Notes under the pieces: generated by a model
Seen by the model: only the letters and a program-made list of their open reading frames with translations
Databases searched by the model: none
What the model was told of the DNA's origin: nothing
Program-made: the position numbers and the translations under genes
Assembly: GCF_023544665.1 (NCBI RefSeq)
Contig: NZ_JAMJFL010000015.1
Coordinates: 62,001-126,000, forward strand
Direction of reading: 5' to 3'
Source: Streptomyces sp. YS415
Lineage (GTDB): Bacteria; Actinomycetota; Actinomycetes; Streptomycetales; Streptomycetaceae
DNA: 64,000 nt
In this document: positions 26,074-28,021 of the stretch, one piece after another
How the letters are laid out: each line of letters opens with the position of its first letter
How positions within the stretch are numbered: the first letter of the stretch is position 1

Positions 26074-27030
<957 letters not shown>

Positions 27031-27318
27031 TCAGACCATGCCGCCGGCCACGGCCGGCAGGATCGTGACGCTGTCGCCGTCGGTGAGCTTGGTGTTGATG
27101 CCGTCGAGGAAGCGGACGTCCTCGTCGTTGAGGTACACGTTCACGAAGCGGCGCAGCTGCTCGCCGTTCGCCTGGTCGATGAGCCGGGCCTGGATGCCCG
27201 CGTGACGGGTCTCGAGGTCGGTGAACAGGTCGGCAAGGGTGTCACCGCTGCCCTCCACCGCCTTCTGACCGTCGGTGTACTGGCGGAGGATGGTGGGGAT
27301 GCGGACCTCGATGGCCAT
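27031..27318 (-). CDS. cysO: Ubiquitin-like sulfur carrier protein CysO (MoaD/ThiS fold)
   Basis: A 95-residue ubiquitin-fold protein that carries sulfide as a C-terminal thiocarboxylate for CysM. The start is AIEVRIPTILRQYTDGQKAV; NVYLNDEDVRFLDG and TILPAVAGG follow as in M. tuberculosis CysO. The M. tuberculosis protein (recalled) ends in Gly-Gly, whereas this one reads Gly-Gly-Met-Val before the stop, so two residues must be removed before activation. ATG 27318 is used; the ribosome site AGGAG is ten bases upstream. The protease gene mec is upstream. Confidence 0.93.
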   Translation of the reverse strand: MAIEVRIPTILRQYTDGQKAVEGSGDTLADLFTDLETRHAGIQARLIDQANGEQLRRFVNVYLNDEDVRFLDGINTKLTDGDSVTILPAVAGGMV

Positions 27319-27413
27319 GGCAAGGGGCTCCTGTCGGAAAAGTGGTCTGGTCTCAGTGGGCGCGCGTCGACGGCGCGCCGCGGCTACACGGCCGTACGGC
27401 TGCAGCGGGACGG

Positions 27414-27509
27414 TCAACAGATGGCGCTGTTCAGCCTGCACAGGTCGACGTGCAGCCGCGCAACGAGCAGCGTGCCCGGCGCCTTGTCGCTCACGTCGAG
27501 AAGAACCAT
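27414..27509 (-). CDS. Putative cysteine-rich-tail leader peptide, likely leaderless
   Basis: A 31-residue ORF in the gap between mec and cysO. Its C-terminus is LHVDLCRLNSAIC, the pattern of the widespread Streptomyces putative leader peptides, with Cys codons at residues 24 and 31, the last before TGA. On the minus strand TACGAT (27516-27521) lies six bases upstream of the ATG, placing a -10 element so that transcription would start at or beside the start codon, as in leaderless mRNAs. About 95 bases separate the stop from cysO. A GGCGCG/CGCGCC hairpin lies in that gap. Confidence 0.75.
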   Translation of the reverse strand: MVLLDVSDKAPGTLLVARLHVDLCRLNSAIC

Positions 27510-27598
27510 GGGCTCATCGTATCGATTCCCGGACCGGCTCCAGGAGTGTGATCTCATCATCCGGACGCAAATCATCCATCATTCGGGATTCGCGGGAT

Positions 27599-28021
27599 TC
27601 AGTAGGCCTCCACGACCCTGACCTCCTCCTCCGTGACCTCGCCTTCCAGGATCCGGAACGAGCGGAACTGGAACTCGCCGAGGCCGTCGGTGTCGGCGGT
27701 GGAGACGAGGACGTAGTGCGCGCCGGGCTCGTTGGCGTAGGAGATGTCGGTGCGGGAGGGGTAGGCCTCGGTGGCCGTGTGGGAGTGGTAGATGACCACC
27801 GGCTCCTCGTCCCGGTCGTCCATCTCGCGGTAGAGCTTGAGCAGGTCGCCGGAGTCGAACTCGTAGAACGTGGGCGACATGGCGGCGTTGAGCATCGGGA
27901 TGAAGCGCTCGGGGCGGTCGGCGCCGGCCGGCCCCGCGATGACGCCGCACGCCTCGTCGGGATGGTCCTTGCGCGCGTGCGCGACGATCTGGTCGACGAG
28001 GGCCTGGGTGATGGTCAGCAT
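27599..28021 (-). CDS. mec: JAMM/MPN+ metalloprotease Mec
   Basis: A 140-residue JAMM metalloprotease. The catalytic set is Glu23, His79-Ser-His81, Ser89 and Asp92 (HSHTATEAYPSRTD), complete for a zinc hydrolase. In M. tuberculosis Mec releases cysteine from the CysO-cysteine adduct. In Pseudomonas QbsD, a relative, also trims residues after Gly-Gly of its sulfur carrier. Because CysO here ends GGMV, Mec could do both. It is upstream of the leader peptide and cysO, in the same direction. Confidence 0.92.
   Translation of the reverse strand: MLTITQALVDQIVAHARKDHPDEACGVIAGPAGADRPERFIPMLNAAMSPTFYEFDSGDLLKLYREMDDRDEEPVVIYHSHTATEAYPSRTDISYANEPGAHYVLVSTADTDGLGEFQFRSFRILEGEVTEEEVRVVEAY

Follow-up and report, generated by a model that had tools for sequence, protein, structure and literature searches.

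A leader open reading frame (ORF) of 31 codons was found on the minus strand between mec and the cysO-cysM genes in a window of 64,000 nucleotides from Streptomyces sp. YS415 (contig NZ_JAMJFL010000015.1, positions 62,001 to 126,000). We propose, with a probability of about 0.6, that it is a cysteine-sensing leader of the HVDLxR type (NCBIfam NF042934) that controls cysO-cysM and is fed by two overlapping promoters. The ORF runs from an ATG (27509 to 27507) to a TGA (27416 to 27414), has Cys codons at positions 24 (TGC, 27440 to 27438) and 31 (TGT, 27419 to 27417), and ends 95 bases ahead of the cysO ATG (27318, minus strand). Its neighborhood, with the flanking genes assigned by Pfam, is as follows.

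27599 to 28021, minus strand: mec, JAB-family protein (Prok-JAB, PF14464), upstream of the leader
27414 to 27509, minus strand: leader peptide ORF MVLLDVSDKAPGTLLVARLHVDLCRLNSAIC with its stop codon, predicted leaderless 5′ end at 27509
27435 to 27452, minus strand: HVDLCR motif, codons 20 to 25 (NF042934 match, conserved class-wide)
27438 to 27440, minus strand: Cys24 codon TGC (78 of 78 aligned loci)
27417 to 27419, minus strand: Cys31 codon TGT, located nine codons past Asp22 and a candidate for the regulatory codon (77 of 78 cysO leaders, 75 of 75 family-wide)
27356 to 27400, minus strand: conserved GC-rich hairpin region in the leader-cysO gap (consensus fold)
27328 to 27336, minus strand: Shine-Dalgarno (SD) context of cysO, CGACAGGAG, near-invariant across Streptomyces loci
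27031 to 27318, minus strand: cysO, ThiS-family sulfur carrier (PF02597)
26074 to 27024, minus strand: cysM, PLP-dependent cysteine synthase (PALP, PF00291)

The first-pass annotation, which left the strand unstated, had described a 31-codon ORF between mec and cysO with Cys at position 24 and at the end, a TACGAT −10 hexamer exactly six bases before the ATG, a 95-base gap to cysO, and downstream genes that make cysteine. Each of these elements is present on the minus strand, TACGAT at 27521 to 27516, and Pfam identifies the downstream genes as cysO (ThiS) and cysM (PALP). A longer in-frame ORF of 53 amino acids (from 27575) is also present, but it runs through the conserved promoter DNA. The gap region at 27356 to 27400 (minus strand) consists of GC-rich GCCGTACGGCCGTG(A)GCCGCGGCG followed by CGCGCGCC; the element is retained at most Streptomyces loci, where it folds into a hairpin.

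In the proposed mechanism, mRNA from a housekeeping-type promoter (TACGAT-N6) would begin on the ATG of codon 1 (27509), and mRNA from a SigR-type thiol-stress promoter (GGGAAT-N18-GTT) would begin on the GTG of codon 6 (27494). Both transcripts would be leaderless and in frame and would encode the same peptide C terminus. When Cys-tRNA is short, the ribosome would stall on Cys codons, chiefly on the TGT nine codons after Asp, and cysO-cysM expression would rise; when Cys-tRNA is plentiful, the leader would be finished and expression would stay low. SigR would contribute a thiol-oxidation signal and the leader a cysteine-supply signal, and stalling may reach cysO through exposure of the ribosome-binding site (RBS) or escape from Rho. 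If correct, Streptomyces cysO-cysM would join SigR thiol-oxidation signaling to a direct readout of cysteine supply within about 120 bases, the range of cysteine-responsive leaders would widen beyond mycobacteria to take in the main antibiotic-producing genus, and two promoters would have a compact way to feed one leaderless sensor ORF.

Two overlapping promoter patterns and in-frame start codons

The block GGGAATCGATACGATGAGCCCATGGTT holds both promoter patterns, TACGAT-N6-ATG and GGGAAT-N18-GTT, one overlapping the other. The elements at and ahead of the leader start are as follows.

27552 to 27566, minus strand: candidate NdgR-like operator GTCCGGATGATGAGA (13 of 15 positions, compared by hand with the published 15-bp motif read as its reverse complement)
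27525 to 27530, minus strand: SigR-type −35 element GGGAAT (80 of 80 loci)
27516 to 27521, minus strand: housekeeping-type −10 element TACGAT, six bases before the ATG (TANNNT in 80 of 80 loci and in other genera, inner bases differing)
27504 to 27506, minus strand: GTT, leader codon 2 and SigR-type −10 element (80 of 80 loci)
27492 to 27494, minus strand: GTG at codon 6 of the leader, where the SigR 5′ end and a second leaderless start (VSDKAPGTLLVARLHVDLCRLNSAIC) are predicted

The 80 leader-bearing loci comprise 79 loci from named Streptomycetaceae genomes and the window itself. In every one, the leader starts with ATGGTT and TANNNT lies exactly at −12 to −7. TACGAT-N6-ATG agrees with the TAnnnT consensus of Streptomyces −10 elements (PMC8079986); a −35 element for this housekeeping promoter was looked for at the leader, and none was found. 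The consensus of SigR thiol-stress promoters is GGAAT-N18-19-GTT (PMC9205884), and it is present at the leader, with GGGAAT, the N18 spacing, and GTT each found in 80 of 80 loci. Because 0.23 occurrences are expected per window by chance, against the one found, the weight of the SigR pattern rests on its conservation and register. GTT is a rare Val codon, used for none of the 99 Val residues of four neighboring coding sequences, and its invariance at codon 2 is attributed to its double service as the SigR-type −10 element.

In SigH and SigR promoters, the T of GGAAT is located at −31 (PMC10012870), which places the predicted SigR +1 on the first base of codon 6. This codon is GTG in 80 of 80 loci, and across all 97 loci with an intact leader, two other genera included, it is one of the start codons GTG and ATG. 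We also compared a second set of 19 cysO loci, drawn from divergent Streptomyces and from other genera within the order; of these, 17 have an intact leader, and all 17 have TANNNT six or seven bases before the ATG, keep GTT, and carry GTG or ATG at codon 6. These loci differ in their start-region DNA (ATGCGTTCCCCCGATGTG, ATGCGTTCTCCCGGCATG), with codon 6 changing from Val to Met, and one of the two other genera has a weaker −35 element, GGGAT. Where the leader is missing (L192 and L203), both promoter elements are present and codon 6 is TGC or ACG, neither a start codon. Counting against the codon 6 argument, a locus with a truncated leader (L069) still contains both promoters and GTG at codon 6.

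The predicted starts at codons 1 and 6 are 15 bases apart and in frame. From the register of both patterns on in-frame start codons, two leaderless starts are predicted, and we lean slightly toward both being used. The leaderless promoter picture of the first-pass annotation fits in its spacing and in the TANNNT of all 80 loci, but it was incomplete, as it lacked the overlapping SigR-type promoter and the second start at codon 6.

It could instead be that the SigR promoter alone is real, with TACGAT a mere spacer, the mRNA beginning at codon 6, and the ATG never used. The SigR/SigH consensus with N18 in 80 of 80 loci agrees with this, as do GGGAAT...GTT-like elements that precede cysO in genera without a leader of this kind and the finding that S. 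coelicolor cysM is hardly expressed without diamide and induced by it (PMC4340878). We nevertheless consider it unlikely, since bases 1, 2, and 6 of the −10 element are kept while the inner bases vary (TACGAT, TAACAT, TAGAAT, TAGACT, TATCAT), and this varying element always lies six or seven bases before the ATG.

The same paper (PMC4340878) describes binding of NdgR at the SCO2910-2912 unit by ChIP-seq in S. coelicolor, along with the 15-bp motif. The NdgR-like site falls in the conserved block upstream of the leader, and this sequence resemblance is offered as a lead only.

Conserved cysteine codons in the HVDLxR leader family

The leader peptide was detected at E values of ≤0.01 in 148 of 150 Streptomyces genomes. 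A search for the leader upstream of cysO in relatives, as suggested by the first-pass annotation, recovered it at 79 of 80 loci of named Streptomycetaceae genomes, with the C-terminal Cys codons conserved. Cys24 is TGC in 78 of 78 aligned loci and Cys31 is TGT in 77 of 78; the sole exception (L098) has gained a second Cys nearby (CRC). Overall synonymous conservation shows no real excess (mean modal codon frequency of 0.914 in the leader versus 0.897 in cysO), and only the codons GTT2, GTG6, TGC24, and TGT31 stand out.

The peptide matches NF042934 (cis_reg_atten, "putative leader peptide") over residues 13 to 31 with 35.7 bits, against a curated cutoff of 27 bits, and it precedes cysO as the short ORFs of this family precede sulfur-metabolism genes. 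The expectation that HVDLxR peptides occur elsewhere in Streptomyces was borne out within the same genome by eight such leaders, seven passing NF042934 and one just under the cutoff. Mostly sulfur-related-looking genes follow them: an LLM-type monooxygenase, a sulfonate-type binding protein, cysO-cysM, a cysteine-dioxygenase-like protein, a sulfite/nitrite reductase, a putative GST-like protein, a rhodanese-type sulfurtransferase, and a sulfite-oxidase-like protein, with cysO alone named by profile search and the others by reading of the sequence. Class-wide, NF042934-type members were found at E values of ≤0.001 in 110 of 148 genomes and 59 of 81 genera.

Several members of the family have features of their own. 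The leader ahead of the apparent cysteine dioxygenase (L005, C35:33869; VTDTCVHLWRKVHVDLVRYAGCMCTRSC) precedes what looks like a cysteine-degrading enzyme, for which induction upon cysteine starvation would be counterintuitive. Downstream of the leader that precedes the sulfonate-type binding protein (L003, C67:19286), CTGTCGGCC, which covers the putative regulatory Cys codon of that leader, recurs several times. In another family of the class (L179, L182, and L225), a related leader of the LVARLHVDLLRVASARC type lies 295 to 360 bases upstream of cysO, which is too far for the arrangement to be the same as that of Streptomyces.

The cysO leader is very probably a genuine ORF of the translated type. 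A small ORF without a regulatory role, whether promoter DNA that is open by chance or only an aid to reinitiation at cysO, is conceivable insofar as promoter constraint accounts for part of the N-terminal conservation and the leader core is missing from two Streptomyces species (L069 and L203) that keep both promoter elements. This explanation is highly improbable, because HVDLCR, SAIC, and the Cys codons are conserved far downstream of both promoter patterns and the same motif is located ahead of many sulfur genes across the class. At L203, the SD context is also altered, from CGACAGGAG to GATCTGGAG.

A codon rule extends beyond the cysO leaders. We compared 76 family leaders (L002 to L009 and L228 to L296) from many genera and with differing downstream genes. 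Where a Cys stands nine residues beyond the Asp of the [V/I]D-L-x-R motif, its codon is TGT in 75 of 75 cases, the 76th leader having Gly (GGT) there, while the remaining Cys codons of these peptides comprise 93 TGC versus 18 TGT and those of cysM in the Streptomyces loci 161 TGC versus 1 TGT; the counts cannot be treated as independent, as they come from related sequences. Directly 3′ of this TGT, 72 of 75 leaders have C or T and none has G, and G is the first base of 40% of codons in neighboring genes. The avoidance of G is not absolute, since G does follow TGT in a divergent leader-like ORF next to L009. This ORF, VSKPENPAARLIVDLRRQSSARCADCCRTH, adjoins the leader of the sulfite-oxidase-like gene (C11:62941 to 65991), and its Cys at +9 is likewise TGT.

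The rule could be explained by wobble decoding, by a distance effect of the nascent chain, or by an RNA motif, and no report of it was found in the literature searched. As a fixed codon, TGT would provide a simple, testable rule for the cysteine-sensing position across the whole actinobacterial family. We put forward tentatively the fuller proposal that the nested starts, a housekeeping ATG at codon 1 and a SigR start at codon 6, operate together with pausing of the whole HVDLxR family at a fixed, wobble-decoded UGU that is set by the nascent peptide. Alternatively, HVDLxR might be a peptide that arrests ribosomes from within the exit tunnel, at a set distance from the +9 codon, and the signal sensed could be cysteine itself and not simple starvation for Cys-tRNA. 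The nine residues between Asp and the TGT-encoded Cys, fixed across many genera and target genes, would suit arrest, as would the flexible N terminus and C-terminal tail and the many members with few Cys codons; the motif may instead serve RNA pairing or elongation speed, and we regard arrest as rather improbable.

Probable cysteine response and possible coupling to cysO

By analogy with mycobacterial leaders, cysteine-responsive control of cysO-cysM is likely. Leaderless, Cys-rich short ORFs in mycobacteria slow ribosomes at low cysteine and control downstream genes (Canestrari 2020, as presented in PMC9031893 and PMC13236596), in support of the precedent named in the first-pass annotation. 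The polycysteine likeness drawn there fails, since the leader has two Cys codons seven apart and no run; having only two counts against attenuation. Cysteine attenuation remains the best reading by the mycobacterial analogy, while the RNA switch proposed with it, in which stalling would change folding in the gap, was not demonstrated by folding tests that were negative or near noise.

RNAalifold on 54 leaders pairs codons 24 to 31 with the cysO RBS CGACAGGAG and the cysO start. Synonymous-codon shuffles pair equally well, the real leader-RBS pairing in single sequences being no stronger (mean of 0.26 versus 0.30 for shuffled sequences), and with modeled stalling the SD becomes scarcely more exposed (0.27 versus 0.23) and the ATG less exposed. 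When leader-RBS complementarity was scored over 60 diverse loci, the z score was −2.8, which is counted as unproven because it is within the range of the control windows (−2.9 to +2.7); one control value probably stems from overlapping windows. RBS sequestration was accordingly rejected as a proven switch. As the coupling step it has somewhat less than even odds.

No intrinsic terminator (a hairpin followed by a U-tract) was found in the leader-cysO gap, and Rfam covariance models gave no match at E values of ≤1 in positions 27200 to 27700. With the same leader, coupling could proceed by Rho-dependent termination, a released ribosome opening the gap to Rho and a stalled one shielding it. The lack of an intrinsic terminator in the region and the negative RBS sequestration tests are in line with this, and Seliverstov 2005 proposed Rho for hairpin-less mycobacterial cys leaders (PMC1262725). 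The attenuation described for mycobacterial cysteine genes is, on the other hand, translational (PMC13236596), and we judge the Rho route unlikely.

Comparison with known systems

The peptide belongs to an annotated family and the principle of attenuation is published, and to that extent the system is already known. At the level of the peptide, the cysO leader does not differ from NF042934; the family name is an annotation, and promoter and target are outside the model. No paper describing the cysO-cysM leader was found, nor any description of the two nested leaderless starts or of TGT as the fixed codon, in a search covering few subscription papers and leaving out those on the SigR regulon.

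The M. tuberculosis mec-cysO-cysM operon is under direct SigH control (PMC4803200). It and S. coelicolor cysM (PMC4340878) have the genes and the promoter consensus in common with the window, and the parts of the two papers examined describe neither a leader peptide nor a leaderless start for the promoter. The candidate cys-operon leaders of Mycobacterium, Propionibacterium, and Bifidobacterium reported by Seliverstov 2005 (PMC1262725) likewise precede cysteine genes and lack an obvious terminator, but they contain runs of Cys codons, and Streptomyces cysO-cysM was not reported there. Leaderless leader peptides occur in Streptomyces lividans as well (leuL1 and leuL2); its eight tabulated attenuators do not include cysO-cysM (PMC8079986, Table 4).

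Like the cysO leader, the mycobacterial families Ms4527A (NF042936) and Ms5788A (NF042933) carry Cys codons toward the end, lie upstream of sulfur genes, and have a start of the leaderless type, which for the cysO leader is predicted from promoter spacing. Their motif is related, with E values of 0.006 and 0.03 and scores of 16.2 and 14.1 bits that are below the 45-bit cutoffs. In contrast to their run of adjacent Cys codons, the cysO leader has Cys at positions 24 and 31 only, and it adds an overlapping SigR-type promoter and a second in-frame start.
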